A DNA stretch of 64,000 nt from Entoloma clypeatum (Eukaryota; Basidiomycota; Agaricomycetes; Agaricales; Entolomataceae): NCBI GenBank assembly GCA_963565915.1, contig OY751492.1, forward strand, positions 4,836,001 through 4,900,000. Reading direction: 5' to 3'. This document shows positions 1 to 40,036 of the stretch, in pieces (the first letter of the stretch is position 1; each line of letters begins with the position of its first letter). The position numbers were made by a program, and so were the translations under genes. The notes under the pieces are model-generated. The model had not been told where the DNA came from and made no database searches. It saw only the letters and a list, made by a program, of their open reading frames with translations.

Positions 1-820
1 CCCTACGATCAATTGGACAACCAGCGCTGTAACATTCAACCGGTGCCCAACAACATGCTGAACCAAACATTCAGATTTCAGGGTTAACCTTGATGGTTGC
101 AAACACCGGGTTCGCATGGTTCAGGTGTGCAACAAAGATGCACCCAAGAAGTCAGATCAGAAATGGAAGCCTGGAGACCCTATCTTGGAAGCTGTCACTC
201 CCACACCACCTCCCACAACCAAACGACCCTCATACGTTGATTGGTTTGCTCACCTCTTCGAGAAGGAGAACTTTGATAAGATCCAGAAGGAAAGGGAATG
301 GGACCATGGTATCGAACTTACACCGGAGCAGTCTACTTCAATAAGATGGACATCATGTGGGGTTACTTACAACAACGTCCGGATCAAGAAAGGCGATGAA
401 TGGAAGGCTGCCTTCCTCACCAGTCAAGGATTGTTTGAACCATTGGTCATGTTTTTGGGCCTTTGCAACTCCCCAGGAACGTTCTCTCGGATGATGGCTA
501 GTCTATTCCAGGACCAGATCCGCCGACGCATCTGCATGATCTATATGGATGACATTGTGGTTATCGGTAAAACCAAGGAAGAACTCGTGCAAAACATTCT
601 ACAGATCCTATCTGACAATGACTTATTTCTGAAGAAAAAGAAGTGTTTCTGGAAAGTAACGAAATGCCCCATATTGGGATATGTCATTGGTGAGGGACAT
701 GTCGAGATGGAAACTGAGAAGGTGGATATGATCCAAAACTGGTGAGCACCCACATCAAAAATGGAAGTCCAGACGTTCCTTGGGTTTGCTAACTTCTATC
801 GATGCTTCATTGAAGGATAC
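1..820 (+). pseudogene. Degraded Ty3/gypsy pol fragment (protease end to RT)
   Basis: This is the left half of an old gypsy element; the right half resumes at 6,849. It runs from the end of the protease domain into reverse transcriptase. Recognisable RT pieces are a YNNVRIKKGDEWKAAF segment near 370-415, a catalytic box read as YMDD near 541-555, and the thumb segment QTFLGFANFYR near 770-800. About 90 residues of the RT fingers are missing between the segment near 320 and YNNVRI, and reading frames change there. A TGA at 743-745 interrupts the frame just before the thumb. The start lies outside the window. A second copy of the same family lies at 23,356-25,029 on the minus strand. The reading is by motif only, but the RT/RNase H/integrase order across the nested insertion makes it secure. 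Confidence 0.85.
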
Positions 821-1020
821 TGTAAGGGCAACCACTTTCACTTTTCACTTTTCCTTTACTTTCCTCCTTTCCTTTCTATTCCACCATCTCCGATCCGCTA
901 CTCCGCACGTCGGATCGCAGGTACTATCATTCATCTTGTTTCCATTCATCCTTCATCGCTACTCCCGATCATTGCTCATCATTCATGCGTCTCGTTTTAT
1001 CTCTTATTTCATATCTCATT

Positions 1021-1067
1021 TTACTATTTATCGCAGCTAGCTTGCAGGGGAATCCTTAGAACTTTCT
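1021..1067 (+). promoter_or_regulatory. TATA-like box and predicted start of R in chromovirus A
   Basis: An AT-rich TATA-like stretch (TTACTATTTA, 1,021-1,030) lies about 30 bp upstream of AGAACTTTCT (1,058-1,067). That decamer is exactly complementary to the sequence just downstream of the LTR, which places the RNA start there if self-priming is used. Confidence 0.55.
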
Positions 1068-1087
1068 CTTCGGATCTCCCTTGCAAG

Positions 1088-1145
1088 GTATGTGTTGTAT
1101 TACTTATTAGACTGCTCAATCTAAACTTCGGATCTCCCTTGCAAG
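1088..1145 (+). other. Candidate intron inside the R/U5 part of the LTR
   Basis: Two perfect copies of CTTCGGATCTCCCTTGCAAG lie at 1,068-1,087 and 1,126-1,145. The first is followed directly by GTATGT, a strong donor. The second ends in CAAG, a usable acceptor, and a CTAAAC branch-like sequence precedes it. The 58 bp between fit the intron size seen elsewhere in the window. The arrangement persists in the 3' LTR and in the solo LTR at 23,778-24,210. Splicing is inferred only. Confidence 0.4.
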
Positions 1146-1187
1146 TATCTGAGTTTGAGTCTTGGATCGTAAGGTCGCCCTTACAGT

Positions 1188-1197
1188 AGAAAGTTCT
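1188..1197 (+). other. Primer-binding site of the self-priming type
   Basis: AGAAAGTTCT begins two bases after the LTR end and is the exact reverse complement of 1,058-1,067, the predicted RNA 5' end. No tRNA 3'-end complement (TGG...) follows the LTR. Self-priming of this kind is established for Tf1 and sushi-type chromoviruses. Confidence 0.65.
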
Positions 1198-1346
1198 CTT
1201 CTAATTGGACCGTGTCCGATTGCATCATTGTCACGATTCCGCGCTTCGGAGCAGCCTCTTCCGCGTCTGACTCCGATACATCTCACACCCCTTCCAGTTC
1301 TTCTAACTACCTCTCCGTAACTGGTGATTCTGCTCCGCGCATAGTA

Positions 1347-2507
1347 ATGGACGACCCCAATTGCCTTGAACAGCTCGAGCACGAGTTCCAGGAACAACGT
1401 CAAACTCTCGCTGATATCTTGACTCAACTTGACCAACTCCTCCTTGCCTTCAACGCAATTCCTGCCCCAGCTCCGCCACCTATCCCACCTGCTCCCGCAC
1501 CCGCTATTATACCCGCTCCGATTGCTCCGGCCAATCCGGGCGTGCGTCGAGCAAAACCTGCCAATCCGTCGGACTTCAATGGACTGCGCGCAAATGGCTG
1601 GACCTTTCTAAACTCCTGTGAATTGTTTATGGGGCTGGCTCTGGAACAGTTCGCAGATGACCACGCTAAAATTTATTGGGCTTTATCTTTCATGAAGAGT
1701 GGACGTGCAGCATGCTTTGCAGATCGCATTATCCGACAGGAGCGGAGGACCGGTGCTCCGCCTTATCGGACTTGGGTGGACTTCCGTGCAGTCTTTACAG
1801 CGGAGTTCACTCCGAAGAATGAGGAACAGGATGCGAGACTGATCCTCGAAGGAGAATCCTATTATCAAGGTCAACGGGATGTTGAGACCTATATTGACGA
1901 GTTCAAAGACTACATTGACAAAGCGGGCTACCAGGAGGATACCAACATCATACTCAAATTCCGCCATGGTCTCCGTTTCGACATTCAGAACGAGATTGCC
2001 ACCCTGACCCACGGACGACCTGCGGATGACAACCCCGATGAGTGGTACTCTGCAGCACGAGTCAATGACGACAATAGGATTGCCAACAAAGCCTTCAAAG
2101 CCACTGCTCCGACCCGTACCTCCGCCTTCCGCAATGTTGTCGGACCAAGAGTACCTGGCACCTCAGTATTCCCTCGCCCCTACATTCCATTCACTCCACG
2201 CACAGCTCCGCTTGCATCCGCATCCGCTCCGTCTCCGCCGACAAGGGACCCCAATGCAATGGACATTGATACTTCACGTGTCAAAGGCAAGAATGCCAAT
2301 GCATGCTTCAGATGTAACAAAACGGGTCACTTTAGTTGTGAATGCCCCCTTCGCTTCGACATTCGCTTCATGACAATGGAGGAGCAGGATGAGTTTGTTA
2401 TGGAACAACTCGTGGTCAAGGATGCAGTGGAAGGCAACTCCGTTCCGCCCACGGAGTCTGCGGAGTCGGAGGGAGGACAGGAGGATTTTCCTCCCCACAG
2501 CGAGTGA
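1347..2507 (+). CDS. gag: Gag of chromovirus A
   Basis: 386 residues from the first ATG of the open frame; the frame is open further upstream but without ATG. Gag forms the cytoplasmic particle that packages element RNA. After a Pro/Ala-rich stretch it shows a retrotransposon-Gag region with conserved aromatics (about residues 80-250). A single CX2CX4HX4C nucleic-acid-binding knuckle (CFRCNKTGHFSCEC) starts near residue 320, followed by an acidic C-terminus. The stop overlaps the pol frame, which lies in -1 relative to gag. No obvious slippery heptamer was seen at the overlap, so how pol is expressed is unclear. The frame is intact, so Gag could be made. Confidence 0.9.
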   Translation: MDDPNCLEQLEHEFQEQRQTLADILTQLDQLLLAFNAIPAPAPPPIPPAPAPAIIPAPIAPANPGVRRAKPANPSDFNGLRANGWTFLNSCELFMGLALEQFADDHAKIYWALSFMKSGRAACFADRIIRQERRTGAPPYRTWVDFRAVFTAEFTPKNEEQDARLILEGESYYQGQRDVETYIDEFKDYIDKAGYQEDTNIILKFRHGLRFDIQNEIATLTHGRPADDNPDEWYSAARVNDDNRIANKAFKATAPTRTSAFRNVVGPRVPGTSVFPRPYIPFTPRTAPLASASAPSPPTRDPNAMDIDTSRVKGKNANACFRCNKTGHFSCECPLRFDIRFMTMEEQDEFVMEQLVVKDAVEGNSVPPTESAESEGGQEDFPPHSE

Positions 2508-5500
2508 ACAGTGCGCCCTCGTTGTCTGCTAAAAATCGTTATGCTGCCTTATTTATGGAACAATATGATCCTATACCCTCCATCTCTAAGCCTGCAAACG
2601 ATGCCATAGTCGCACCCAACTCCGCAAATCCCATCCGCCTTCGCCTCTCTAAATGGGAGCGTCAGCTTCCAAAACAATATGTCCTCGCCTCCGCTCACTC
2701 CGACAATTCTATTGAACTAGACATAGTTCTTGAAACTACCGACACCAAAGACACACTATCACAAAAGGCCTTACTCGACAGCGGGGCAACAGGGTCGTTT
2801 ATTGAACGCACTCTGGTCGAGAAACACCGACTCTCTACTCGAAAACTACAACGCGCAATTCTGGTATACAACATCGACGGAACTCCAAACGAGGCCGGAG
2901 CAATAACGGAGGTGTTGGATGTAGTGCTCCGCTACCGGGATCACTCGGAACGGACCCAGCTTGCAGTCACAAGTTTGGGAAAACAAGAAATCGTGTTAGG
3001 CTTCACTTGGCTCAAGGAACACAACCCCGAGGTAGATTGGACATCAGGGGAAGTGAAGATGAGCCGGTGTCCTGCACAATGTCGGACATGCCACCAGGAG
3101 GCAGCCCAAGAGCGGAAGGAGCGGAAGTTTGAACAAGTCCGCATCCGAGCCTGTTGGATGGGTTCCACTCCGACGTCCGGTCTAGAGGAGGAGGCTCCAC
3201 GTGGCCCATGGGTGGAGGATGTCACAGAAGGAGAGAAAGCGGAGGAGTTAGCGGATAACGAGGAGGAAGAGGATGAGTTTGAGGAGGGAGACCGCCTTTT
3301 TGTCGGAACAGTACCCGCGGAGGCGGAGTTCATCCGTGCTTCATCCAATATCTCGCAACGTCTATCGGAGGCCTTCCTCAGTAACCAAAAACCTAAATCT
3401 TTCCGCGACTCTGTACCAGACCACTTGTTTGACTTCGAAGACGTATTCTCAAAGACCTCTTTCGACACCTTACCGGAAGAGCGGACTTGGGACCACGCCA
3501 TTGAACTTGTTCCGGACGCCTCTCCGGCGGGTTGTAAGGTATATCCACTTGCTCCGAATGAACAGAAGGAACTCGACGCGTTTTTGGAGGAAAACCTTGC
3601 AACTGGTCGAATCCGCCCTTCCAAGTCTCCGATGGCATCTCCGGTATTTTACATCAAGAAGAAGGATGGCTCCCTTCGTCTTGTACAAGACTACCGGTCA
3701 CTCAATTCCAAAACTATCAAAAACAAGTATCCGCTTCCGCTCATATCCGAACTGATCAATAAACTTCAACGCGCTCGATACTTCACCAAGCTCGACATCC
3801 GCTGGGGCTACAACAATGTGCGGATAAAACCCGGAGACGAGTGGAAGGCTGCTTTTCGGACCAATCGCGGACTCTATGAACCATTGGTGATGTTCTTCGG
3901 CCTCACTAATAGTCCATCCACATTCCAGACTATGATGAACGAAATCTTTCAGGACCTTATCACTGAAGGTGTAGTCTGTGTTTACCTCGACGACATACTC
4001 ATCTTCACAGAGACCCTTGCGGAGCATCGGAGAGTCACACGGATTGTACTGGAACGACTTCGCGAACACAAACTCTATCTAAAACCAGAGAAATGCGAGT
4101 TTGAACAAACGCGCATTGAATACCTAGGCCTTATTATTGAACAAGGACACGTAGAGATGGATCCGGTGAAGGTAGCGGGGGTCGCGGAGTGGCCTGCTCC
4201 GACAAACGTCCGAGAAGTACAGTCCTTTCTAGGATTCACTAACTTCTATCGCCGTTTTATTGAAGGGTTTTCGGACATCGCGCGCCCTCTTTTCGAGCTC
4301 ACGAAGAAAGGGCACCTCTGGTCTTGGAAGGAGGGAGAAGTGTCCGCATTTGCGGAGTTGAAGCGGAGGATTACATCCGCTCCGATCCTGGTCTTAGCTG
4401 ATCATGGAAAGAAGTGGCGGATAGAAGCAGATAGCTCGGACTTTGCAACCGGAGCAGTACTGTCCCAACCAACAGAGGACGGTAAGTGGCACCCTGTCGC
4501 ATTCTATTCCAAAAGCCTTAGTCCGGTGGAACGCAACTACGAGATCTACGACAAGGAGATGTTGGCAGTGGTCCGCGCATTGGAGGAGTGGAGGCACTTC
4601 CTTGAAGGAGCGGAGAAGACAGTGGAGATTTGGACGGACCACAAAAATCTTGAGTATTTCATGACAGCTCAAAAACTAAATCGACGACAGGCTAGATGGT
4701 CCTTATACCTCGCTCGTTTCGATTTCAAAATGCACCATCGACCTGGCAAGTCAATGGGCAAGTCCGACGCTTTGTCCCGACGAGCGGACCACGGAGACGG
4801 ATCGCGGGACAACGAAAACATCATCCTTCTGCGACCAGAATTGTTTGCAGTGCGAGCAATGCGGGGGGTAACTGTTCAAGGGGAAGAACGCGACGTCCTC
4901 CGCCAGGTCCGACAGGGAATCCGAGAGGGGTTACTGGAAGATAATGTGGCGGAGGTTGTCAAATCCCTTCCGACTGTCGGAGCGGGATCCGTCCGTAGTG
5001 CGGAGTGGAGGCAAGCGGAAGGTTTGTCTACTTCAGGGATCATATCTATGTTCCTAACAATCCCCAACTGTGTCATCGGATCCTCACACAACACCATGAC
5101 ACTCCGGTGGCCGGACATCCTGGACGGTGGAAAACCTTGGAACTGGTGTCGCGCAATTACTGGTGGCCGCACATGTCTCGTTTAATAGGTCAATATTGCA
5201 AGACATGCGACCCTTGCCTCCGCACCAAGGTCCGATGCACTCCGCCCTCCGGAGAGCTCAATCCGCTACTGGTCCCCACGGAGCGATGGCAAGTAACCAG
5301 TGTTGACTTCATTACTGAACTACCAGAAGCCCATGGCTACGACGCTATCATGGTCGTAGTGGACTCAGTAGGGAAGCGGGGACACTTCATCCCAATGCAC
5401 TCCGACATCTCCGCACTCGGGACTGCACGCTCCTATGTTCAAAATGTCTGGAAACTCCACGGACTACCAGAGGCCATTGTCTCCGACCGAGGACCACAGT

Positions 5501-6408
5501 TTGTTGCCAAGTTCACGCGCGAACTATACAGGCTGCTTAACATTAAGGTTGCTGCCTCGACAGCCTACCATCCGCAGTCGGATGGACAGACGGAGCGGGT
5601 CAATCAAGGATTAGAACAATACCTTCGCCTATTCGTCAATGAACGTCAAGACGATTGGGACGAATGGCTTCCGATGGCTGAATTTGCATACAACAACCAT
5701 GTTCACGCATCGACACGTCAAACTCCGTTCTACATTGACACCGGCCGCCATCCGCGCATGGGATTCGAACCTCGCGAGAAGCGGACGGAGATCGAGGCGG
5801 TAGCGGATTTCAGCCAGCAGATGAAGTCCGCTCTAGAGGAGGCTCGCGCAGCACTGACAAAGGCAAAAGATGACATGGCGCAATACTACAACCAGCATCG
5901 GAGCACCACTCCGACATTCCGCCCGGGGGACAAGGTCTTTTTAGACTCATCAGACCTCAAAACCACCCGACCCACAAAAAAGCTTGCACATCGATATGTA
6001 GGCCCTTTCCCAGTGGTCCGACCTGTCGGAACACATGCCTATGAACTTCGCCTTCCCCCTTCCATGTCCCACGTTCACCCAGTATTCCATGTTGTCAAAC
6101 TTTCACTAGTTCCCGACGACCCTTTCCGACGCCAAGTCCGCTCTCCTCCGCCTCCGACGGTAGTCGGAGAAGAATTAGAGTACGATGTTGAAAACCTCTT
6201 GGACAGCTGACTGCATCGAGGCAAGCTTCAATTCTTGGTCAAATGGAAGGGATATGGCTACGAAGAGAATTCCTGGGAAGCAGAAGACAATGTCCATGCT
6301 CCGCGCCTAGTCCGCGACTTCTACGGACGTCATCTGGGAGCTCCGCGGCGGATCGCTGCCGCGATATTCGACTTGTTTCGCCTGACACGTCGAGACGCCG
6401 TGCCTTGA
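2504..6408 (+). pseudogene. pol: Pol of chromovirus A: protease, RT, RNase H, integrase, chromodomain
   Basis: The first part (2,504-5,185) holds an aspartic protease with LLDSGATGSF (about 2,775-2,805), RT with YLDDILIF (about 3,978-4,000), the thumb QSFLGFTNFYRRF, and RNase H with DSSDFATGAVLSQ and TDHKNLEYF. A one-base deletion near 5,025 moves the frame. The second part (5,005-6,210) is integrase: an HHCC zinc region with CKTCDPC, the D,D,E core including SDRGPQFV and TAYHPQSDGQTERVNQ, and a C-terminal GPF...HPVFHVVKL module. A TGA at 6,208 separates this from an intact chromodomain (FLVKWKGYGYEENSWE, about 6,232-6,280). The chromodomain is known to steer chromovirus integration to modified histones. 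With only two small lesions, the copy decayed recently. Confidence 0.92.
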
Positions 6409-6419
6409 AGGGGGGGTGA
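6407..6419 (+). other. Polypurine tract of chromovirus A
   Basis: GAAGGGGGGGTGA lies directly before the 3' LTR and overlaps the pol stop codon. It is the expected plus-strand primer. Confidence 0.8.
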
Positions 6420-6843
6420 TGTAAGGGCAACCACTTTCACTTTTCACTTTTCCTTTACTTTCCTCCTTTCCTTTCTATTCCACCATCTCCGACGTCCTCC
6501 GATCGTATCCGCTGTCTCCGACATCTTATCCACCTCTCCGCATCTGACGACTCCGCCCCCATCCGCTACTCCGCACGTCGGATCGCAGGTACTATCATTC
6601 ATCTTGTTTCCATTCATCCTTCATCGCTACTCCCGATCATTGCTCATCATTCATGCATCTCGTTTTATCTCTTATTTCTTACTATTTATCGCAGCTAGCT
6701 TGCAGGGGAATCCTTAGAACTTTCTCTTCGGATCTCCCTTGCAAGGTATGTGTTGTATTACTTATTAGACTGCTCAATCTAAACTTCGGATCTCCCTTGC
6801 AAGTATCTGAGTTTGAGTCTTGGATCGTAAGGTCGCCCTTACA
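6420..6843 (+). repeat. 3' LTR of chromovirus A
   Basis: 424 bp. It carries the U3 segment missing from the 5' LTR (rich in TCCGA/TCCGC) and lacks 10 bp near the TATA region. It is followed by the GATAC target duplication and then the host gypsy sequence. Confidence 0.95.
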
Positions 6844-25639: not shown

Positions 25640-26223
25640 CCAGTATGACTAGCGAGAGGCTATGGACGGTGGCGGAGACGGAGGAGAAAGATTCCGACAA
25701 AGCATAAAATAGCCCTGGGCATCACGGCGGGCATGGGCTGTAGACACTCTGCAGGACAGAGCCAACGGCTCAACAGTCGTTGACGGAAATGAGAGGAAGG
25801 GCAGGGAGCTGGGTGGGAGCTGAGGACGTGGAAGGTGTCAGACGGCGGCAATGCAGCGGCTATCAGTCGGAGGTGTCATATAGCCGAGAGGCGACGACGG
25901 GAGCTGAGGTAGTCGAGAGGCCACGGACGACAGTAGGAACAAGGGAGCAGGGGCATCTGAGATTACGGAGGGCATGATGCAGCGCAAGGCAATTGAACGA
26001 TGGTGGAGGCAAGGGAGCGGAGCTTCAGCGGCACGGAGGGCATCGGATAGCTCCTGATCACCACCGAGAGGCTGCGGACAGCGGTGGAAACGAGGGAGCG
26101 GGAGAACCTGAGAGTACGGAGGGTGTCGGGCTGCCGGGAGACAGTGGAGGGAGTGAGGGGAGTTTCAACGGGGGCCGACAGCCGCCAATCACAACCAAGA
26201 GCGATGGACGACAGCGGGGAGGG
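25640..26223. repeat. GC-rich tandem repeat with a long degenerate unit, next to the gap
   Basis: Recurring blocks GAGAGGCNNCGGACG and ACGGAGGGYRTC appear near 25,650, 25,890-25,970, 26,034 and 26,070-26,120, spaced roughly 80-160 bp. Open frames here continue into the N run and are not credible. Confidence 0.5.
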
Positions 26224-26423
26224 NNNNNNNNNNNNNNNNNNNNNNNNNNNNNNNNNNNNNNNNNNNNNNNNNNNNNNNNNNNNNNNNNNNNNNNNNNNNN
26301 NNNNNNNNNNNNNNNNNNNNNNNNNNNNNNNNNNNNNNNNNNNNNNNNNNNNNNNNNNNNNNNNNNNNNNNNNNNNNNNNNNNNNNNNNNNNNNNNNNNN
26401 NNNNNNNNNNNNNNNNNNNNNNN
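26224..26423. other. Assembly gap of 200 N
   Basis: Exactly 200 undetermined bases. It truncates chromovirus B inside its integrase. Confidence 1.
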
Positions 26424-29099
26424 GATGCCTTGTTTAGTGAGGCGGTCTACAATGACCAGAATCGCATCGGAGCCAGCGGATGTCGGAAGGGGTTCAATGA
26501 AATCCATGGAAATAGAATGCCAGGGACGTTCAGGAATAGGGAGTTGTTTAAGCAGACCGTAGGGTTTATGACGTTGGGGTTTGGCGCGCATACAAGTGGT
26601 ACATGACTTGCAATACTTTTTGACGAAGTCGCGCATTCCAGGCCAAGTGTATTCTCGTTGGATAAGACTAATAGTCTTATTTTGACCAGGGTGTCCAGCG
26701 AGGATATGGTCGTGCTTATTGCGGAGGATGCGGAGACGGAGGTCGGATGAGTCGGGAACATAGATACGTCCATTGTGGAGTAGATAACCTGCTTCATTCA
26801 CAATCCAGCGTGGATTAGGATTGTCGAGGAAAGAGGTATAAATGGGATCAGTCGGAAGAGCGGAGAGGATGTCGGAGCGGAGCTGATCCGTATCCATGAT
26901 GATTGTGGCACGGAGGACGGGCGTATATAACTCTGTTGCGCGAAGTGAAGTGGTGAGCTGTTCTTGTGTGAAGATGGGTTTGAAGTTGCTTGGGTTGACG
27001 GACGAATAGTCGCTATTTCCCTCTTTAGGGTAGACATCCCATCGTCTACTTAAAAGATCGGGCTTCGTACCTAAACAGCCAGGGCGGAAGCGGATGACGA
27101 GATTGAACTGGCAGAGGTACTCGGACCAACGAGCTTGTCGACGTGATAAAATCTTGGTAGTAGAAAAGTACTCAAGATTTTTGTGGTCCGTTATGACATC
27201 GATCGGAGCAGCGGAGCCTTCAAGGTAGTGACGCCAAACCTTGAATGCATCATGGATCGCTAATAGTTCTTTGTCGTGGGTGTCATAGTTTAACTCGGGA
27301 GGTGTAAAGGTGCGGGAGTGGAAAGCGACCGGATGGATTTTGTCGTCGGAGGTGCGAATGGAGAGGATCGCACCCAAAGCGTAGTCGGAGGCATCGGTTT
27401 CGACAATAATAGGGCTGTCGGGAATCCAATGCGTAAGAACAGGTGCCGTGGTAAAGGCTTTCTTCAAAGTTTTGAAAGATTCGCGAGCGGAGTCGGAGAA
27501 GTGCCATTGTGTGTTTTTGCGGGTGAGTCAAGTGAGCGGAACAGTGATTTCGGAGTAGTAAGGAATGAATTGTTGATAAAAATTGGCAAAACCTAAGAAA
27601 GACTGAATGTCTTTGACCTTCCTTGGTTCAGGCCAATCTTGAATAATTTTGACTTTCTTATCCGACATGCGGAGGCCTGTCGGAGAGAGGATAAAGCCAA
27701 GGTATTCAACAGTATCCGTAGAAAACTCGCATTTGTCTGCGCGTGCGTATAAGCCGTGTTGTCGGAGACGTCGGAGGACTTCGCGGACATGCTTCCGATG
27801 CTCAGAGGGAGAGTCGGAGTAGATGAGGATGTCGTCGAGATATATGGTAACATACTTATCGAGCAGGTCGTGGAAGATGTCGTTCATGAAGCGTTGAAAA
27901 ACGGCTGGGGAGTTGGTGAGTCCAAATGGCATGACAAGCCATTCAAAAGACCCGTAGCGCGTGCGGAAGGCGGTTTTCCATTCATCTCCTTCTGCTATGC
28001 GGACGAGGTGATAGGCATGTCGGAGGACGAGAGCCGTATAAACACTGGCTTTTCCAGCAGTCTGGAGAAGGTCAGATATGAGCGGAAGCGGATATCGGTC
28101 CTTCTTTGAGATTTTGTTAAGACCACGGAAATCGACGCAAAGACGAAGGGAGCCATCCTTTTTACAAATGAAAAGGACGGGAGCACCGTGCGGAGAGGAA
28201 GAGGGTCGGATGAATCCAATGGTGACGTGTTCCTCAATGAATTCACGGAGGGCATTGAGTTCGGTTTGTGAAAGGGAGTAGATCGGACCGAACGGAGGAG
28301 CGGAGCCCTCTTCAAGTTTGATCTTGAGGTTGTAGGGACGGTGGGGTGGAAGAGTGTCTGCTTTTCCTTTACTGAAGACGTCAGCATAGTCGTGGTATTC
28401 TTCGGGTACGTTTGTCAAGTGGGGGGTGTCGGAAGCGGATGCGGAGTGAGCGGAAACGGAGGGAGTCGAAAGGTGAAGTCGAAAGGATTGTGTACCAGGC
28501 AATTTGCATGCCCTCATAAATGCGGCTGCGTTAATGAGTGAAATCTGCGGAGGTACGATCGGAGGTTCCGGAGGAGGAAGCGTAGCTGTCCTACCTTGGG
28601 AGGGGGTCGATGTCGATGTCGGAAACGGCTCTTTTTGCATTTGTGGATGGAAAGTGATACTGCCCAATACCCAGTCAATCATAGGATTGTGGCGGGTGAG
28701 CCAGTTGTATCCAAGAACCACGGAAGAAGCGGAGTCGAGCGGAGTAACATAAAAATCCTGTTCAAAAGATTCACCTGAAGGAAAACATATAGGTATTGTT
28801 ACAACTTGAGTGATAAACGCGTTAGAAGAACCATCGAAAAGCTTTAGTTCTAAGGGTGGAATAGCGGAGGTCGGAAGATCATAGGCGGAGGAAAAGTTAT
28901 TGTCAATAAAACAGTGAGTAGATCCTGAATCAATAAGTGCTGGGACAGAATCTGAGGGGAAAAAAGAAGATGAGATATTGATACGTAAAGAGTTCGGATC
29001 GGAGAGAGCGGACGCGTTAAGTCGGATGGGAGCGGAGGCACGGAGAGAGTCAACGCAGTCCTCAGACCGTGCTTCATGAGGACCACTGCCTATTTTTTT
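26424..29099 (-). pseudogene. pol: Pol of chromovirus B: protease, RT, RNase H, integrase start
   Basis: Frame -1 relative to gag, entered at the A-AAA-AAA run. Protease is seen as ALIDSGSTHCFIDN (about 28,915-28,950). RT has the fingers IRPSSSPHGAPVLFI, then DFRGLNKISKKDRYPLP and YLDDILIYSD (about 27,825-27,850). RNase H has ETDASDYALGAILS and TDHKNLEYFSTTKILSRRQARW. The integrase zinc domain (HDHILAGHPG...CKSCTTC) and the start of the core (DFIEPL...VDRLTKQGI) follow before the gap. A single TGA (27,528-27,530) interrupts the frame between RT thumb and RNase H. Otherwise the copy is intact. Confidence 0.9.
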
Positions 29100-30351
29100 G
29101 ACTCGATCTCCTTACTTTTTTCCTTGGCTTGAGTGCCAACTTGGGCGGCTTTCCCTTTAGCCTTGGAAGCGGAGGAGGTGGACTTGGGACAGTCCTTGAC
29201 AGCGTGTCCGACGCTACCGCAGAATAAGCAAAGGTTATTATCGAAACGACGTTTGTGTTCTTGATACGTCAGTTTGCCGTCTTTGCCTAATTTACTGGAG
29301 AGGTCGGGTTTCGGAGCGGATGTGGAAGCGGAAGCGGAGGGTTTGGTTGATGATGTTTGTGGAGTGGATTGGTTCGGAGCGGATTGTTTTTTGTCGGACT
29401 TGGGAGTGGGTTTATCGGTTCTGGATTTCTCTCGTTGACGTTCCCAGTAGCGAGCGTCAATAGTATGAGCCGCGGATCGTAGGTCTGGTAAAGACTTGAT
29501 CTTGGGTTGTTGGGAGAGGATGTCCTTGATCCGATCCGGAAGTCCGACGTAGTAGCGGTGTCGGAGGGAGTTTTCATCCCAGTCAGTCTTGGTAGCAAGA
29601 CGTTGGAATTCAACATTGTACTTCAATATCTTTTGATTTTCCTTCATCCGTAGGTTGTCCAACTGTTCTTCGGCTTCGCCCTGAGGGTCAATGATACCAA
29701 ACTCGGAGCGGAGAAGTCGGACGAACTCGGGGAAAGAACCCCGCCAATTGGGTTCATCATCATCTAGAATGAAGGGTTCAAAAAATTCGAGTGCTGTGCC
29801 TCGGAAGTAAGACATGGCAAAGTTGACTTTGGAATGTTCTGAGTCGAAGTTGTCGTTGTCGGAGAAGTAAAGTTTGCATTGTAAAATGAATGCGGAGAGT
29901 TTGCGCGGATCGGATCCGTCAAAGGTATCCGGTTCGTTGGCATACGACTTTTTCTTCTTTGTATCTCGACGTTTCAACTCTTTGGTCATGAGCAGAATGG
30001 CTTCAGCTAGATTGGGTTCCTGATCTGGATTGGAATCAGAGTCGTCCAAATCTCCATGTAAACTACCGTCGGAAGGAGGAGGAGATCCTCCTGGAGGTCC
30101 GCCGAATAAGCCAGAATTTAGAGGTGCGGAGGGTTCCGTTGGTGGGTTTAGTGGAGGACTGGCAGGAAGTGGTGGGAGCTGAGAGGAACGGATGGTCCAG
30201 GGGTAGGAGTGGATGATGATGCTGTGGCTCCTCGAGGGGTAATGGTTACATTGCGTGTTCCTCGAAGAAAAGCAGAGCGTGGTGTGGAGGATGAACGTTC
30301 TGCTGCTGCACGAGCAGTCCTAGTTGTTTGAACTGTATTACGGGTTTGAGA
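29090..30351 (-). pseudogene. gag: Gag of chromovirus B
   Basis: The main frame (29,090-30,049 and upstream) encodes a retrotransposon-Gag core (FDGSDPRKLSAFILQCKLYF, YFRGTALEFFEP, LDNLRMKENQKILKYNVEFQ) and one knuckle, CLFCGSVGHAVKDC, near 29,190-29,240. An in-frame initiator is most likely the ATG at 30,351 (MSQTRNTVQTTR), but a frame change near 30,180-30,060 separates that N-terminus from the core, so the copy looks broken. The stop codon TAG directly follows a slippery heptamer. Confidence 0.8.
29093..29099 (-). promoter_or_regulatory. Candidate -1 ribosomal frameshift site at the gag stop
   Basis: On the minus strand the gag frame reads TCA AAA AAA TAG. The heptamer A AAA AAA fits the canonical X XXY YYZ slippery pattern, and slipping back one base enters the pol frame (ATA GGC AGT), which is open through protease. 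Confidence 0.6.
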
Positions 30352-30392
30352 CATGTGGGTAGAGGTTGTTGGGTAAATCAAAGAATGGTGGT

Positions 30393-30403
30393 AGTTCAAA
30401 TAT
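30393..30403 (-). other. Self-priming PBS of chromovirus B
   Basis: On the minus strand ATATTTGAACT begins three bases after the LTR end and is exactly complementary to AGTTCAAATAT within the LTR (30,660-30,670), about 30 bp downstream of a CTATAAATAG TATA box. Confidence 0.65.
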
Positions 30404-30405
30404 AC

Positions 30406-30908
30406 TGTCACGTAGCGTGTTTCTCAACGTTGGAAAACATCGGACGTGTCGGAGCGGAGTAGCGGAGGAGCGGAATGCAGTAAGTGCGACATTGGCAGAA
30501 AGGACCTGGCTTCAACTTGTGCATTGCGCCCCACTCTTTGACGTGGTCCTCGATTTTGGATTGGCGGATGTCGGATGAGCGGATGAGCGGATGAGCAGAG
30601 GTGACGGAGAGTATGCTCAAAGGCAAGTAGAGACGGATGCGAATGAGGTGTAACATATGATATTTGAACTGAGGTTCTACGACAGGTTTGTACACTATTT
30701 ATAGTAGACTAGAATGATCAGCATTACTATAAGTGATAGAGAGTAGCAAATGAAAAGTGAACAACATATGTCTACTTGTAAGTATGGTTGAGATGTTACG
30801 TAGTAGAAGTATAATCAATATAAATAGAATGTTGTTGGAGGGGATGTCGGAGCGGATGAATCGTCGGAGTCGTCGGATAAGTCGGATGTGAATCGTATGG
30901 TTATGACA
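30406..30908 (-). repeat. 5' LTR of chromovirus B
   Basis: 503 bp, TGTCATAACC...GCTACGTGACA on the minus strand. TATA is at about 30,695-30,705. The right flank GAGCA (minus strand) is one half of the expected target duplication. Part of U5 is similar to the chromovirus C LTR (CACAAGTTGAAGCCARGTCC). Confidence 0.85.
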
Positions 30909-32744: not shown

Positions 32745-33689
32745 TACAACCGCAGGGCCTGACGTGGACAAGCTGGTCTCCCTTAAGTTACGTACTCATA
32801 ATGTTCAAAGAACTAATACAATCATTGAATCTTTCCTTGCTAGACACAGTGAAGATATTGATATCTATTTTGTCCAAGAACCTATCAAGTATCTTGCCTG
32901 TTACACGGTTTCCACTTCCTCCAAAGAGGGCAGCCCTATCTATTGGTATCCTCGACACCCATCCTGGACTTGCTCCGATGCTTCCACTTCTGACGCCTCA
33001 GCCCACATGGTTGCCTACATCAACACTCACATCTCGCATCTCCACCCAGTGTTTCACTATGAATTCAATGCCCCTACAGACATTCAAATCCTCTCATTAT
33101 GGCCCACCAAATCCCGGCAGGTCTACCTCATCAATGTCTACTCGGATGCTTCTGGGTCAGCCATCAAATGGCTCACTGGGAATGCCCATACACTCCCTTC
33201 TCCCATCATCTTTCTTGGCGGCGACTTCAACTGCCCATCCACCCTCTGGGACGTTGCAGTCACCCATTCTTCAAGTCTCTCTACAGACCTCATGCAAGTT
33301 GCTTCCTCGTTCGACCTCACATTCAGCAGAACAAATACTGACCCTCCTACGCGGATCCCGGACAACCCCCTCCACTGGCCTTCCACACTCAATCTCGTCT
33401 TCCTCCCGGCCAACAGGCCCAGGAAGTGTGACAGATTTCTTTGCCCATTTGAGCACGACAGCTCCGATCACATTTCTCTGACAGTCTATCTCCCCTGGAC
33501 TCTTTATCAGCCATTGGTCAGACAGATTGTTCCCCTTAAAACTTACGAAGCCTATATTGCAGGCCTCCTAGTCGCCTTTAGCCAGGTCCCAGACTCCTAT
33601 GCTTCAGCCCAGGATGTCGAGTCTGCTGCTACCAACCTCCAAATGGCCCTGTCTGTAAACTGGGACACAAGCCTTACGGTCTACTCAAA
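32737..33689 (+). pseudogene. LINE ORF2, endonuclease domain only
   Basis: It starts at the ATG within ATGGTTGA, overlapping the ORF1 stop by eight bases. An exonuclease-endonuclease-phosphatase fold is indicated by LRTHNVQ...DIYFVQEP near the N-terminus, FLGGDFNCPSTLWD (about 33,211-33,252) and SSDHISLTV (about 33,460-33,486). The reverse transcriptase is lost: the reading joins gypsy integrase sequence at about 33,690. Confidence 0.8.
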
Positions 33690-34788
33690 CAGCTTCCGAT
33701 CCCCGAACGTCCTTGGAATTCTATCTCAATGGATTTCATCGAGACCCTCCCGACCTCCGACAACTTTGATTCAATCCTCGTTATCGTTGACCGATTAACG
33801 AAACAAAGTATTTTCATTCCGACAACAATTCACTGCACCTCTGAAGACCTTGCCGTTCTCTTCGTATTGCGTGTCTTCTCTAAACACGGCGTCCCCGAAC
33901 ATGTCACCTCTGACCGCGGCCCTGAATTCGTCTCCCGATTCTTCCGATCTCTCGGAAAGGCTCTAAACATGACCCTCCACTTCACCTCCGGTTACCACCC
34001 CGAAGGCGATGGCCAAACCGAACGCACTAACCAGACCCTCGAACAGTACTTGCGGATATTCTGCAACTACCAACAGGACAACTGGTCCGCTCTCCTTCCG
34101 ATTGCAGAGTTCGCGTACAACAACGCACCTAGTGCTACCACTGGCATATCTCCCTTCTTTGCTAACAAGGGTTACCATCCGAACATTACAGTTCACCCGG
34201 AACGAGACCTCGCCTCTTCCCGAGCCTGATCCTTCGTGACCGACTTAGACGAACTTCACCAAGAACTGAAAGCCACCATCTCCGACGCTCAACGACAATA
34301 ATCGGATCGCAGCTCCGACATTTTCTGTCGGACAACAGGTTTTCATCAAAGCACAGTTCTTCCGCACAACACGCCCATCCAAGAAACTCTCAGAAAAGTA
34401 CTTGGGACCATACGAGATCATTGCACAACCCAGCACACACTCCTTTACCCTCCGACTCCCCGACACATTCCGCGGTGTTCACCCCGTCTACCACATCTCC
34501 ATGCTTGAACCCACAACTCCGAACACCATTCCGAATCGGACCCAACCTCCGCCTCCTCCGATTGACATTGACGGAGAACTTGAGTACGAGATCGCTGAAA
34601 TAGTCGACTCAAAGATCGACTGACGACGTAGCTGCAAGCTACTATATTTCGTCCGTTGGTTAGGATATGAAAACACTGATGAAGAATTCTCTTGGCTACC
34701 AGCCAATGAATTGGAAAACGCCCCCGAGCTTGTCTCCGACTTTCACTCCGCTTATCCTGACAAACCGGGCCCGCTCACATCGCTCTGA
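33690..34788 (+). pseudogene. pol: Integrase and chromodomain of chromovirus C
   Basis: Integrase core motifs are DFIETLPTSD...IVDRLTKQSIF, TSDRGPEFVSRFF and SGYHPEGDGQTERTNQTLEQYL. A TGA at 34,227-34,229 and a frame change near 34,300 follow, then FFRTTRPSKKLSEKYLGPYEI and HPVYHISML. Another TGA at 34,621-34,623 precedes a chromodomain-like segment (FVRWLGYENTDEEFSWLP). The natural stop is at 34,786-34,788. Confidence 0.85.
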
Positions 34789-34815
34789 AACAAGAAAAAA
34801 CAAGTACTATTCTAT

Positions 34816-35735
34816 CTACTTAGTACGTTGTTTCTTGTTTGACGGACCCTCCTCCTTGTCCGACTCCGACTCCTCCTCCGCCTTCTCCGATGGCTCCGAA
34901 ATTGACATGTCGGAATCATCCGACAGCTCCCGCAACTCCAACCTCTTCCTATTCACAAGGTCCTTCCTAATCCTTCTTGCGATCCTCTTCTCCAGTCTCA
35001 ACTCGTGTGTCTCCTCCGCTGTATCCATCTCCGACTCCGACCCTTCCTCCGACACCTCCGGCGACTTGGGTTGATACTCGGTGTTCACCGAGCCTTTGAC
35101 TGCTGTTAGCAGTCGCCTCACCTGCCTCGTCTCCGCCAGTATCATCTTGAGGACACCCAAGATAGTGTCCTCCGACCCACTCTCCGACGGCATCTCCAAC
35201 GCCTTTTTCTTCCCCTTAATCACCTTCACCGTTTTCTTCACCTCCTTCACCTCCGACTTTCCCTCCGACGCTCCGACCTCGCACTTCTTCTTATCCTTGA
35301 CACAACCCTTGCAGGACGACTTATTCCTAAAAAACAAAAGGTTAAAACAGAAGAGACGAACCAAAGAAGAACTTACTCATCGCGTTCACATTCGACGCCC
35401 TTCACATTGCACCTATCACAGGCGCCGACCCCGACTCCCGACCCCTCTCCGACTGTCGCCGTCACCTCCTCTACCTTCCTTTTCTTCCTCACCTTCTTCT
35501 TCTTCTTCTCCGCCTGCGGCCCCCCCGACCCCTTGCTCGATGCGCCTTGCGCAGCGGCCACTTCATCAGCCCTCTTCTGAGCCGCCAGCTCCGACACCCG
35601 ACGCATCTCCTCCGCTACCCGCACCTCCTCAGCCTTCCTCGCAGCCTCCTCCTCCGCTGCTCGCTTTTTCGCCTCCACCTCCGCGAGCTTAGCCTGCAGC
35701 GCCTCCATCTCCTTTTGAAAATCGGTTGCCGACAT
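34816..35735 (-). CDS. Antisense zinc-cluster protein gene carried inside chromovirus C
   Basis: CDS complement(34816..35326, 35377..35735), 289 residues, with a 50-bp intron (GTAAGT...TTTTAG, TTTTAAC branch). Unspliced, the frame stops just after the donor. Splicing restores a continuous frame and a canonical CX2CX6CX8CX2CX6C cluster (C106, C109, C116, C125, C128, C135). Residues 1-60 are a charged coiled coil, 77-90 a Lys/Arg-rich nuclear-signal-like run, and the C-terminus is Ser/Glu-rich and acidic, ending SNKKQRTK. It lies tail-to-tail with pol, 27 bp between stop codons, and starts 165 bp from the 3' LTR. In the family (fungal Zn2Cys6) the cluster binds DNA. A regulatory role in the element is inferred. 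Confidence 0.75.
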
Positions 35736-35884
35736 ATCGAGGTTTTTTTGGAAGAGTTTAAAACGAAAAGAGAATGGGAAAACAAGAAGAAAGAACCACT
35801 CAGACGGTATTTTCAACCAACGCATCACATGACGCAGTTCACGCGCACCGACCACCTAGGTCCTTAGGCCTCATGGGTTCGGCC

Positions 35885-35899
35885 CTAAGGGGGAAATAC
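35885..35899 (+). other. Polypurine tract of chromovirus C
   Basis: TAAGGGGGAAATAC directly precedes the LTR start. Confidence 0.75.
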
Positions 35900-36384
35900 T
35901 GTTACATTTCAATCCATTCCGACGATTTCCGACCAATCCCGACACCTCCGACACCTCTGACATTTTGACTAATACTTATTATGCATACTTACTGTTATGA
36001 ATCTCGTTACTACGTACATTACTTACATCAGACCATTTTACTTATGTTAAGCATCTCCGACAGCCACTTGTTATCCGACTCCGACAAAGCCACATGTCCT
36101 CCGACATAGTATTTAAACTTATGTAGAATCGTGTATTAGCTTCAGTTTGAATATCAACTTAGATTCGACATCACAACTCCCGTCCTCTTTCCGACTCTTA
36201 ACTTGAGTCCGACCTCTGACCCTCCGATCCTCCCATCCTCCAAAATAAGGACACCCACATATTAGCAAGGGCACAACACACAAGTTGAAGCCAAGTCCTT
36301 GCCCCTACGTTGCACGCGCTCTGACCCTCCAACCTTCCGACGCGTCCGACGTAGCTCCGATATTTTGTCGATCAGTTCTTAACA
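35900..36384 (+). repeat. 3' LTR of chromovirus C
   Basis: 485 bp, TGTTACATTTC...CAGTTCTTAACA, with a TATA-like GTATTTAAAC near 36,107. It is rich in TCCGAC motifs. The right flank is TTCTT. Part of U5 matches the chromovirus B LTR. Confidence 0.85.
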
Positions 36385-36898: not shown

Positions 36899-37333
36899 TC
36901 AAGTAGATACAGCCTCCACTGATTCAGTTTCAAGAACTGCAAGCCTACGCCTCAGTTCCCCATTCTCTACCCTCAAACCATCCAGTTCCATCTTCATGCC
37001 CTCCAAGCTCATCCTGATTCTGTCCATAATATCGGCATCCTCTTCGATCCTCTCCTGCTGTGCCTCCATACTCTCCATCGACTCCATCAGCTCTTTGAGA
37101 GCTTTCTCGTTGGCTTGGGCGATTGCCTCTGCATGCCGCTCCCTCCGAATGGCCTTGCGATCCCTTCCGTCTATCAGGTGCTTCTCTCGTTCGATCCTGG
37201 AGCGCTGCCTGGCTTCCTTGCTCCGCACCTCTGCCCATACTCGTGCCTCTAGCTCCCCAACCTCCGCATTGAGTTCAGTCCATTGCGGATATAGATCTTG
37301 GAGCTCACGGGTGGCCGGTGTTGTGCCAGACAT
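36899..37333 (-). CDS. Coiled-coil protein of unknown function
   Basis: 144 residues from MSGTTPATRELQDLYP; a longer upstream frame exists, but this ATG begins the coding-like part. Nearly the whole chain from about residue 25 is charged heptad-like helix (EVGELEARVWAEV, MESMEAQQERIEED, LRVENGELRRRLAVLE), predicting a long coiled coil. No catalytic motif was seen. It follows the 37,481 gene in the same direction with 147 bp between. The context suggests an accessory protein of the TET/Ulp1 cluster, but no function is assigned. Confidence 0.55.
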   Translation of the reverse strand: MSGTTPATRELQDLYPQWTELNAEVGELEARVWAEVRSKEARQRSRIEREKHLIDGRDRKAIRRERHAEAIAQANEKALKELMESMESMEAQQERIEEDADIMDRIRMSLEGMKMELDGLRVENGELRRRLAVLETESVEAVST

Positions 37334-37480
37334 AATGATTGAAAATGCACGTGACTGGGATAACCTGCGGGTATGCATTGTGCGGAGGGCGGTTGGATTG
37401 ATCAACGAAGGCTGCGGAGGGCTGATGTATTAAATGTGCACAGCCATTGATCAACTTGGATATAATCCTCCACCCTGCCA

Positions 37481-38206
37481 CTAGTCCGTAGTAGCTTGCT
37501 TCAACTGCCTGATTTCTTCCTCCATTTCATCCATCCTCTCCCTCATCTTCTCTTGTGCCTCCTTCGACTTCTCCATATGCTTCTTGAACTCCAGCCCTTG
37601 TTTCTTCAACATCTGCTTGATCCCTTCTGAAGCCTCCGCCATGCCGTCGAAGCGACTCTGTATGAGTGCTTTCACCTTCACCACCTCCTCCTCAAGCTGC
37701 GTGGACAGTGTGTCCACCAACGTCGCCTTGCTCTTCCCTCCTGCTTGCTTTCGACCACCAACTCCAGCTCCAGCTCCAGCTCCCCTTCCCCTGCTACCCC
37801 CCGCCACTGGTTCACCGGATCCCCCCAGACCCCCCGCTGCCACCTTTCCCTTCACCCCCGCTGCTCCTCCTTCCTTCCCTGAGCCCCCCTTTCCTCTTGC
37901 CCCTCTTGGCCCATCCTTGGGTCCCGTAGCTTTGGCTTTCTTCGCTGGCGGAGACTGGGGCTCCTCGCCACGCGGCGGGGTCTTCCGTTTACTCGCACCT
38001 TGCTCGTCCTCTCTCTCATCTTCGCTTGCTGGCAGGTTCCGGTCGCAGTAGTCGTAAAAAGCCGCCTCCGCCTCTTGGTCGTCCTTGTTGTCGGCGTATA
38101 CATTCCAGAGCCGTCCCAGCTCCACCTTCTGTTCTGGCGCGGCTTGCGCATTGAATCGGCGGATAGCATTAACGCGGAGGTTGCGTGGGGCGTTGGGTGT
38201 TGACAT
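37481..38206 (-). CDS. Gly/Ala-rich basic protein with C-terminal coiled coil
   Basis: 241 residues from MSTPNAPRNLRV. The N-terminus is a short folded-looking segment (ELGRLWNVYADNKDDQEAEAAFYDYC). It is followed by a Lys/Pro-rich nuclear-signal-like stretch (SKRKTPP...PPAKKAKA), a Gly/Ala/Arg-rich linker (about 95-155), and a coiled coil (about 165-240: SRFDGMAEASEGIKQML...MRERMDEMEEEIRQL). It is divergent to the zinc-cluster gene at 38,376, sharing 169 bp of upstream DNA. Unknown function; the architecture suggests a DNA- or chromatin-associated accessory protein. Confidence 0.55.
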   Translation of the reverse strand: MSTPNAPRNLRVNAIRRFNAQAAPEQKVELGRLWNVYADNKDDQEAEAAFYDYCDRNLPASEDEREDEQGASKRKTPPRGEEPQSPPAKKAKATGPKDGPRGARGKGGSGKEGGAAGVKGKVAAGGLGGSGEPVAGGSRGRGAGAGAGVGGRKQAGGKSKATLVDTLSTQLEEEVVKVKALIQSRFDGMAEASEGIKQMLKKQGLEFKKHMEKSKEAQEKMRERMDEMEEEIRQLKQATTD

Positions 38207-38375
38207 GAGGTCCGGAAAACAAGAGGATGATGGTGGTGGTCTGAGAAAGGACGATGATGGATGGTGGTTGGAGTTAAATAAGCAGCCAGATCGTGTGACA
38301 ATCACCAAAAATCGTCGTTATTTGTTACTGTTGAGCAAGCCACTTCGCAGAATTACCATCACCACACGCGTACTC

Positions 38376-38934
38376 ATGCCACCTCGCCGGAAGCCCTCGC
38401 AGCCGCAGATTATATTGATAAGAAATGTACCCCCGTGTGCGGCCTGTGTAGGCAAACACGAGGGATGCTTGACCACCTAGTGAGTATTTCGGTACGCATA
38501 TCTCACTGCAGAGGTTGAGGGTTGTAAAATTTTGAAGCAACACCGAAGGGCATGGACGGAAAACCATATCCTGCACTGCCTGTCAAAGGAAAAGGCGGCA
38601 CTGCAGCCTTATCCCTGAGAGAAGGCATGCGAGCGGAGGTAGTAATAACAGAGGGTATACAGATCAAGTTGTTGCAGGTGGAGAGGGTGCGGTGCATCAA
38701 GACCACGCGGAGGCTGCCATCGAGGGCGATTCAGATGGTGCGAACAGCGGTATTGAGCAGGATGAGGACAGCGCGGAGGGATTGAAGAACGGAGACGAGT
38801 TGGCCGCGCTATTCCGCGCTGCCATAAATGATTGGTCTGCATCCATTGAAGGTGGAGCATTCCGAATTCTGGATATCGATGAGGAGGCGTACGAGGCCCT
38901 GAAGGAACGATCCGCAGTGATCAGGGGCATTTGA
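38376..38934 (+). CDS. Small zinc-cluster protein
   Basis: CDS join(38376..38479, 38538..38934), 166 residues. The first exon ends in an early stop unless the 58-bp intron (GTGAGT...TTGAAG) is removed. Splicing yields CX2CX6C (C21, C24, C31), a 15-residue linker and CX2CX6C (C47, C50, C57), a Zn2Cys6-like layout with a longer linker than usual. The rest is acidic, with a conserved-looking ELAALFRAAINDWSASIEGGAF segment. The intron falls four residues after Cys3 in phase 2, exactly as in the genes at 34,816 and 39,332. It is followed by an AATAAA signal and a genomic A23 tract. Confidence 0.65.
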
Positions 38935-39102
38935 TGAGTACCCCCAGTAGCCCTCTATTCCCACCTAAGCCCTCCGCCAATGCATTGCAACACTTGGATA
39001 GGTCTCCGCAGCCCCTTTGAAATAACCACCTGCAGTGCTCTCACCCGCTTATCTACCTGGTTGCATGTAATGTGTAACATGGGAACCCAGTTCCCCCAGC
39101 AC

Positions 39103-39331: not shown

Positions 39332-40036
39332 ATGCCAGACGATGAAGCCATTGCCCTCCTCTACAGCATGGGTGAAGCCTCTGCGTCACGATCATCCACC
39401 GGCCCCCGCGGAAGAAAGCTGGCTACACAGGGTGTCCCATCGCGCAAAGCCCCAATCATGGAGATTCCGGATGATGACGATGTGCCAACAACAAGCCCCG
39501 CTGCACCAAAACAGAAAGAAAAGGTGGCCTCGCCTGCCATCGTGGCTGTGTCGACTGCCCCCGCAGCCGCGTCGACCCCCTGTCGGGAATGCTTGTACAC
39601 TGCTCAGCAGTGCAAAATACATGAGTACGTATTCCACGACCCACACCCCTACACCTGCTCAGTATCTGACCGCAGACCCGACTCCTGCTGCGGGCCCTGT
39701 CGCAAAAGCCAAGTGTACTGTGAGTGGGACGTTGAGGAGGTGAAGGAAGTCGCAACGGCCATGGCTGTCGTCGACAGGATGAATGTGGCTGACCACCGTG
39801 ATGTCATGATTCGGCAGATGATGACCGTCCAGCGCCTCGCCCGCCTGAACCTTAGTGGCCGCCCTTCGGCGGCGAACACTTGCAGCGTGGATCACTCAAA
39901 GTTGGAGGCCCGCATCGCCGACTTGGAGGAACAGATGGAGGAGGAGCTCGTCCTCAGAAGCAAGATGGCGGAGATATTCGAGAAAGATGACAAAGCAGCC
40001 GGTCCCTCCACGAAGAGACGGCGACAGGCGAACTGA
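39332..40036 (+). CDS. Zinc-cluster protein with C-terminal coiled coil
   Basis: CDS join(39332..39624, 39676..40036), 217 residues when the 51-bp GTACGT...CTGAC...CGCAG intron is removed; the intron is itself open, so retention would give a longer protein. Splicing gives a textbook CX2CX6CX8CX2CX6C cluster (C84, C87, C94, C103, C106, C113). The N-terminus is Ser/Pro/Ala-rich. A coiled coil follows (about 165-200: SKLEARIADLEEQMEEELVLRSKM), and the chain ends in a basic TKRRRQAN tail. This is the layout of a small fungal Zn2Cys6 DNA-binding protein without a transcription-factor middle-homology region. It is a likely paralogue of the antisense gene in chromovirus C. Confidence 0.7.
   Translation: MPDDEAIALLYSMGEASASRSSTGPRGRKLATQGVPSRKAPIMEIPDDDDVPTTSPAAPKQKEKVASPAIVAVSTAPAAASTPCRECLYTAQQCKIHEYVFHDPHPYTCSVSDRRPDSCCGPCRKSQVYCEWDVEEVKEVATAMAVVDRMNVADHRDVMIRQMMTVQRLARLNLSGRPSAANTCSVDHSKLEARIADLEEQMEEELVLRSKMAEIFEKDDKAAGPSTKRRRQAN

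Follow-up and report, generated by a model that had tools for sequence, protein, structure and literature searches.

Accessory genes that run antisense to the rest of an LTR retrotransposon are already known, from plant elements and from Boty of Botrytis. In plants, antisense open reading frames (ORFs) have been described between pol and the 3' LTR of Grande (gene23), RIRE2, Retand (TRP28), and PvRetro13 (excerpts of PMC7264820 and PMC11963269). The antisense products of Retand have a probable DNA-binding domain (PMC11963269, in part), and the available portion of PMC7264820 describes the functions of the plant antisense accessory genes as unknown. HBZ of HTLV-1 and APH-2/3/4 are also antisense genes at the 3' end, with spliced forms and nuclear regulatory products (excerpt of PMC10186651). 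The VANC proteins of the Arabidopsis VANDAL elements are encoded by elements that carry dense, short target motifs in one orientation (excerpt of PMC5735166). In fungi, we found no antisense, spliced, or zinc-cluster retroelement gene among the open-licence PMC titles and first parts of abstracts listed (at most 20 papers per search), the brtn gene of Boty having come from article texts, and the word "antisense" is absent from the main text of a survey of Laccaria transposons (PMC3411680).

We analyzed such a gene in Entoloma clypeatum, in a window of 64,000 nucleotides (the whole stretch under analysis) at positions 4836001-4900000 of contig 11, in an assembly of 60 Mb and 20 contigs. The original prediction, made from the letters of the window, placed an antisense gene of two exons between the end of a chromovirus pol and its 3' LTR. 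This is borne out, with exon 1 at 35735-35377 and exon 2 at 35326-34816. We consider the observation of an antisense zinc-cluster gene confirmed and its interpretation supported, and we read its product, from the sequence, as a putative DNA-binding regulator. The features are the following.

~33664..36384, + strand: chromovirus fragment, 5'-truncated (integrase end, chromodomain region, antisense gene, 3' LTR), adjoining a LINE-like ORF
33729..34226, + strand: integrase core (Pfam rve, E 5.4e-8, 33.5 bits, cut-off 32.6)
34816..35326, - strand: exon 2 of the spliced frame, with the second Cys triad, a basic stretch, an L-LK-IL-ETRQ-RRLL core, an acidic part, and the C-terminal PSNKKQRTK
35281..35313, - strand: second cluster half, CKGCVKDKKKC, in exon 2
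35327..35376, - strand: predicted intron, 50 bp, phase 2, GTAAGT...TTTTAACC...TTTTTTAG, with its signals in aligned copies
35377..35735, - strand: exon 1 of the spliced frame, with a Glu/Lys/Ala-rich N-terminus (coiled coil by eye), a basic run, and the first Cys triad
35388..35420, - strand: first cluster half, CDRCNVKGVEC, in exon 1
35736..35899, - strand: stretch upstream of the gene up to the LTR, with a polypurine tract (by eye) beside the LTR; the antisense promoter is expected here
35900..36384, + strand: 3' LTR, TGTTACA...TTAACA, 485 bp (from LTR pairs in related copies, ends from the sequence)

The fragment follows a LINE-like ORF whose endonuclease domain (PF14529) scores above the cut-off. 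Among the bounds first given for the element (33690-36384), the end stands and the start lies nearer to ~33664, as given by alignment with the LTR-paired copy L028, to whose 3' part the fragment is 93.3% identical over 2789 aligned columns. The integrase core was called on both the window and L028, the chromodomain (PF00385) on L028 only. The window copy lacks the 5' part of the element, and what is left of pol (33729-34788) has an in-frame stop at 34227-34229 and frame shifts; the adjoining antisense gene is open. As originally proposed, the two genes stand tail-to-tail: the pol stop occupies 34786-34788 and the antisense stop 34818-34816, 27 bp away.

The complete element is seen in other copies of the family, here called family I. 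Three with paired LTRs (L013, L027, L028) measure 7046-7113 bp, and their LTRs are 99.6-100% identical over the matched stretch (467 bp at 100% in L028). Gag and pol, with 424 and 1245 open codons, overlap in different frames, and the Pfam families above cut-off in L028 are Ty3_capsid/Retrotrans_gag, RVP_2, RVT_1, RT_RNaseH, Integrase_H2C2, rve, and Chromo. With gag, PR-RT-RNaseH-IN, chromodomain, and LTRs, family I is a chromovirus of the Ty3/gypsy type. LTR pairs at 95-100% identity were found in 10 of 21 family-I loci; L017 has a partial pair (84%), eight have none, and L014 and L018 matched other repeats. L013 and L022 are flanked by what read as target duplications of 5 bp.

A DNA search of the genome with the gene gave at least 41 matches (40 of 188 candidates scored), and protein searches gave at least 266 for exon 1 (150 of 193 scored) and at least 153 for exon 2 (150 of 196 scored), with an in-frame stop in 20 among the exon 2 matches listed. 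Since only part of the candidates was scored, the family size is a lower bound. Copies L009-L028 are ranks 2-21 of the DNA search, that is, 20 of its 40 scored places, and L029-L039 were picked by hand from lower exon 2 matches, mostly those free of stops. Of 32 family-I copies, 23 have the whole predicted spliced frame open, a fraction that is not that of a random sample because the copies were found by the gene itself and partly chosen as open. A 24th (L032) has an open frame when read from an internal ATG, and stops, frameshifts, or the absence of exon 1 disrupt the remaining eight. The most divergent subfamily (L034-L039) has two open copies among the six fetched, one of which (L037) lacks a cysteine. 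Subfamily B (L029-L033, compared here without L032) is mosaic-like: its exon 1 is near that of subfamily A2 (dS 0.06), and its exon 2 is nearer to C (0.22) than to A (0.68). This looks like the pattern that template switching would give.

The predicted spliced product has 289 amino acids and carries CDRCNVKGVECERDENKSSCKGCVKDKKKC. Its cysteines form the cluster CX2CX6CX8CX2CX6C, which arises, as had been claimed, by the joining of the exons: without splicing, the frame would end after 120 codons, leaving the second Cys triad in a different open frame. Among 23 intact copies, five of the six cysteine columns are invariant and the sixth is kept in 22. We take the spacing to be the usual one of PF00172; the basic triad is the second in this protein and presumably the first in the typical Zn(2)-Cys(6) order. 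The Pfam Zn_clus model (PF00172) scored 11.4 and 12.7 bits on two of three family-I proteins (cut-off 21) and had no match on the third, nor on one protein each of the families II and III described below. No bZIP family appeared in Pfam scans of the three family-I proteins with E up to 1, and comparison with solved structures gave insignificant matches only (E 0.13 and 0.55). Zn_clus matches number 18 in this genome and 0 in 14 control genomes. The basic runs and the KKQRTK-like tail suggest that the protein would enter the nucleus. Upstream of the gene, CGTTGGTTGAAAA is common to families I and II in the stretch that separates the antisense ATG from the LTR (35736-35899 in the window, 758-928 in the family II copy L040), and is a candidate antisense promoter element.

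The splice sites were initially chosen for the longest open frame, and the alignment then placed GT and AG identically in 31 of 31 family-I copies, L034 being omitted since it has no exon 1. The sites are mostly GTAAGT and TAG and a branch-like TAAC is retained, in an intron whose body is strongly different in subfamilies A and C. The introns measure 48, 49, 50, 51, 52, or 53 bp and cover all three classes modulo 3; among intact copies, exon lengths hold theirs, a constancy to be read with the fact that these copies were chosen for being in frame, which does not apply to the introns. The survival of an intron in a retroelement would follow from its antisense position, since the sense genomic RNA has no splice signals there. 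The intron would thus pass through reverse transcription and be removed only from the antisense messenger, as expected from established knowledge of splicing and retrotransposition.

Selection on the frame was assessed by Nei-Gojobori counting with our own script, which is not a likelihood model, between subfamilies A (6 copies), A2 (3), B (4), and C (1). For the gene as a whole, dN/dS averages 0.39 in A-B, 0.31 in A-C (dS 0.84), 0.34 in B-C, 0.20 in A-A2, and 0.43 in A2-B. Across six selected pairs, ratios in the gene frame are 0.22-0.42 with no stops (Fisher p 3.7e-6 to 9.9e-14), and four of the five other frames have 0.93-1.59. The remaining one, the reverse frame rc1, in which wobble positions are mirrored, has 0.31-0.63, lies above the gene frame in every pair, and contains 2-3 stops. 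Omission of codons touching a CpG lowers the gene-frame ratio to 0.12-0.26, so that methylation decay is not the source of the signal, and the dS of 0.84 between A and C means that youth does not account for the open frames. The check proposed with the original prediction, that related elements should keep the frame under purifying selection, thus came out in its favor: frame, intron, and cysteines are kept, and dN/dS is well below 1. A chance frame, a mirrored sense frame, young copies, and capture in a single copy were rejected by the frame controls, by the shuffled-window scan presented next, and by recurrence in the genome.

We scanned for split clusters, pairs of CX2CX6C halves with a GT-AG intron between them. 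The real window contains the antisense gene and two others, and 20 windows shuffled in two-base blocks contain none. Run over all the sequence collected, the scan gave four more genes beyond the family-I copies, two of which lie in other repeats: that of L017 (family II), with at least 42 matches in the genome (40 of 150 candidates scored), and that of L016 (family III), with at least 43 (40 of 321 scored) and, at the protein level, at least 153 (150 of 164 scored). In each of these families, the copy inspected (L040 for II, L041 for III) is chromovirus-like and has the zinc-cluster gene tail-to-tail beside pol. In all three families, the antisense accessory ORF lies between pol and the 3' LTR. 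Identity from the integrase to the end of pol is 74.6% between I and II, 77.7% between I and III, and 74.3% between II and III. The spacing CX2CX6C-loop-CX2CX6C is present in all, and the introns are all in phase 2, 14 nt after the third Cys in family II and 11 nt after it in families III and I.

The accessory gene of these two families also shows low ratios. In family II, six pairs have dN/dS of 0.25-0.60, all below 1, and five are significant (the other has p 0.19); L044, which has AA in place of the acceptor AG, was spliced at the homologous place. In family III, six pairs without L041 have 0.27-0.41, and four pairs with L041, retained though its gene ends in a different frame, have 0.57-0.85, two of them not significant. 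L045 and L047 have no usable full frame. Comparison of full-length profiles gave a probability of 94.9% (E 4.3e-8) for I-II, 66.8% for I-III, and 47.2% for II-III, and at most 2.7% for two coiled-coil controls. The cluster taken separately gave 11.3%, 42.0%, and 44.7%. Pfam found no family in the family II protein and a sub-threshold ADD_DNMT3 only in that of family III. From these comparisons, we read the accessory gene as a single lineage that would predate the split of the three families, which may instead have captured it independently from one host gene lineage. The window also contains, at ~26058-30900 on the - strand, what appears by eye to be a remnant of a family II chromovirus, recognized by pol peptides common to L040, close to the LINE-like ORFs and the family I fragment. 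No antisense gene was seen in this remnant, where 26224-26423 reads N.

The two other split-cluster genes of the window, at 38376-38940 and 39332-40036 on the + strand, both have a putative intron that would lie 11 nt past the third Cys. Each is found in three places, all on contig 11, and we therefore rejected them as further retroelement genes. Only the place of the intron and the layout of the cluster agree with the element gene, and profile comparisons with the element protein are not significant (I-H1 20.8% over the full length and 40.2% over the cluster; I-H2 4.2% and 7.1%). They may be the source of the element gene, its descendants, or mere analogues. The protein of the 39332 gene ends in PSTKRRRQAN, which resembles the PSNKKQRTK of the element. 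Beside the two genes, the ORFs at 36899-37405 and 37481-38308 on the - strand are coiled-coil-like with no Pfam family above the cut-off, and served as comparison controls.

L028, the family-I copy examined over its whole length, is filled with a short motif in one orientation. Its sense strand and its other strand have 85 and 1 occurrences of CTCCGA and 85 and 4 of TCCGAC. Each L028 LTR has 15 TCCGAC, all on the sense strand, where 200 simulations with the dinucleotide transitions of the LTR gave a mean of 0.5 and a maximum of 3, and the 3' LTR of the window (35900-36384) has 11 on the + strand and 0 on the other. At the start of the L028 LTR, five [TC]CCGA sites are spaced by 10, 10, 10, and 9 bp. 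In gag and in each of three pieces of pol, both hexamers are more frequent than in all 2000 synonymous shuffles, and TCCGAC occurs in all three reading frames of pol (15, 9, and 8 times). The excess is weaker in the antisense gene of family I (p 0.0005-0.0075) and mostly not significant in those of families II and III (p 0.0025-0.47 over the motifs tried). The pol parts and LTR stretches of II and III (L040, L041) share the CTCCG core and its orientation with family I. Eight control ORFs of the window (two LINE-like, six others) have 0-3 CTCCGA and 0-1 TCCGAC each, with p 0.014 for CTCCGA in one of the LINE-like ORFs and 0.046 in one of the others. A different element, gypsy-like by eye, at positions 1-6700 of the window has a milder excess of CTCCG(A/C) on both strands, and no split cluster was recognized in it. 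The motif of family I is thus dense, short, in one orientation, and largely specific to the element, as in VANC-type systems, with a specificity left incomplete by this other gypsy. The motif contains CCG/CGG, the half-site that Zn2Cys6 proteins usually recognize. The link between the antisense protein and the arrays is suggestive.

Starting from the place of the gene, its frame, intron signals, and cysteines, the selection on the protein, the recurrence in three families, and the motif arrays, we favor, with a probability of roughly 0.55, the following explanation: this clade of chromoviruses carries an antisense gene with a predicted intron, and the zinc-cluster coiled-coil protein that it encodes would bind the element's own CTCCGA/C arrays and thereby set transcription or resist silencing. 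The antisense messenger would start near or in the 3' LTR and then be spliced, giving a putatively zinc-binding protein that would dimerize by its coiled coil in the nucleus and read the arrays of its own DNA. Such a protein would raise or tune the transcription of the element, or keep silencing off. Of these effects, anti-silencing seems favored since the arrays cover the body of the element and not the LTR alone. The opposite direction, a repressor, is equally open, because HBZ lowers the expression of its own virus (excerpt of PMC10186651). A more specific form, which we hold tentatively and would not bet on, is self-addressed control, where the spliced antisense protein would mark its own arrayed DNA against host silencing in a VANC-like manner evolved independently, with an intron coming from an old zinc-cluster lineage that persists in the host.

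Other explanations share part of this evidence. The bias of the arrays to one strand is just as compatible with a motif recognized at the RNA level, and the antisense protein might act in the packaging, export, or protection of the sense genomic RNA by binding its many UCCGAC copies, the cluster and basic runs being an RNA-binding surface. The near absence of TCCGAC from the other strand through LTR, gag, pol, and antisense gene is what this would produce, as is an excess beyond codon usage in gag and pol, which an RNA-level signal would leave. However, dense arrays in the same orientation also mark the DNA targets of VANC21 (excerpt of PMC5735166), and the regular spacing at the start of the L028 LTR suits the DNA helix. 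We find action on RNA unlikely. Slightly less credible still is that the protein reads no DNA and interferes with cellular or element proteins through coiled coils, in the manner of HBZ and CREB-2, a host factor binding the arrays. The long Glu/Lys/Ala-rich N-terminal stretch (by eye) and the HBZ-like position of the gene agree with such a role, which leaves aside a split six-Cys cluster common to all three families.

Two further explanations dispense with the protein. Pol and the antisense gene are convergent and only 27 bp apart, hence their messages likely overlap, and the antisense transcript could matter as RNA, by double-stranded or small RNA feedback on pol, the coding frame being incidental. 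Such a role has been discussed for plant elements (excerpt of PMC7264820), but a protein frame with dN/dS far below 1, in-frame indels, and a drifting intron largely refute it, and we consider it improbable. Hardly any credit remains for an artefact, in which the frame would mirror selection on the sense strand or reflect young copies yet to decay: the low ratio of rc1 is indeed what mirrored wobble yields, but this frame stays above the gene frame in 6 of 6 pairs and is interrupted, and the A-C divergence is not that of young copies.

We searched a database of 5.8 billion proteins for relatives of the antisense protein and found none, either with a four-sequence alignment (7993 candidates scored) or with the cluster region (39 scored). 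A control search with gag gave 778 proteins at E <= 0.001, showing that the database holds related elements. The negative result for the antisense protein is weakened by its intron and low-complexity ends, as a split gene probably suits gene callers poorly. Two pieces of pol had no relative in viral_contigs. In the literature seen, the split cluster with a conserved intron, the spread over three families under measured selection, and the arrays are without counterpart. The system offers three independent handles, namely a protein under purifying selection, a conserved intron that can be used only through antisense transcription, and a candidate binding site present about 85 times in one element, which make the question of its function directly testable. 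If the preferred explanation is true, regulators of the HBZ or VANC type that are encoded by the elements themselves would extend to fungi.

Compared with the plant antisense ORFs, the gene of family I has the same place and orientation and is likewise present in most copies, and some of the plant products are nuclear or predicted to bind DNA (excerpts of PMC7264820 and PMC11963269). However, the plant proteins are different, with no zinc cluster or intron mentioned: the words "intron" and "zinc" have 0 occurrences in the main texts of these two articles. The closest fungal parallel is brtn of Boty, in Botrytis cinerea and Sclerotinia sclerotiorum, also an extra antisense gene between pol and the 3' LTR of a chromovirus (excerpts of PMC7264820, PMC4227169, and PMC8365987), which we liken to ours by gene position alone and not by protein comparison (primary paper Zhao 2011). 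With HBZ and APH-2/3/4, family I shares an antisense gene at the 3' end, but HBZ is a bZIP protein where family I has a split six-Cys cluster, and no descent is claimed. VANDALs are DNA transposons, and the likeness of family I to them is one of arrangement, in that the arrays are alike, with no claim of homology. The VANC motifs are mainly noncoding (excerpt of PMC5735166), whereas those of family I are also found inside gag and pol.
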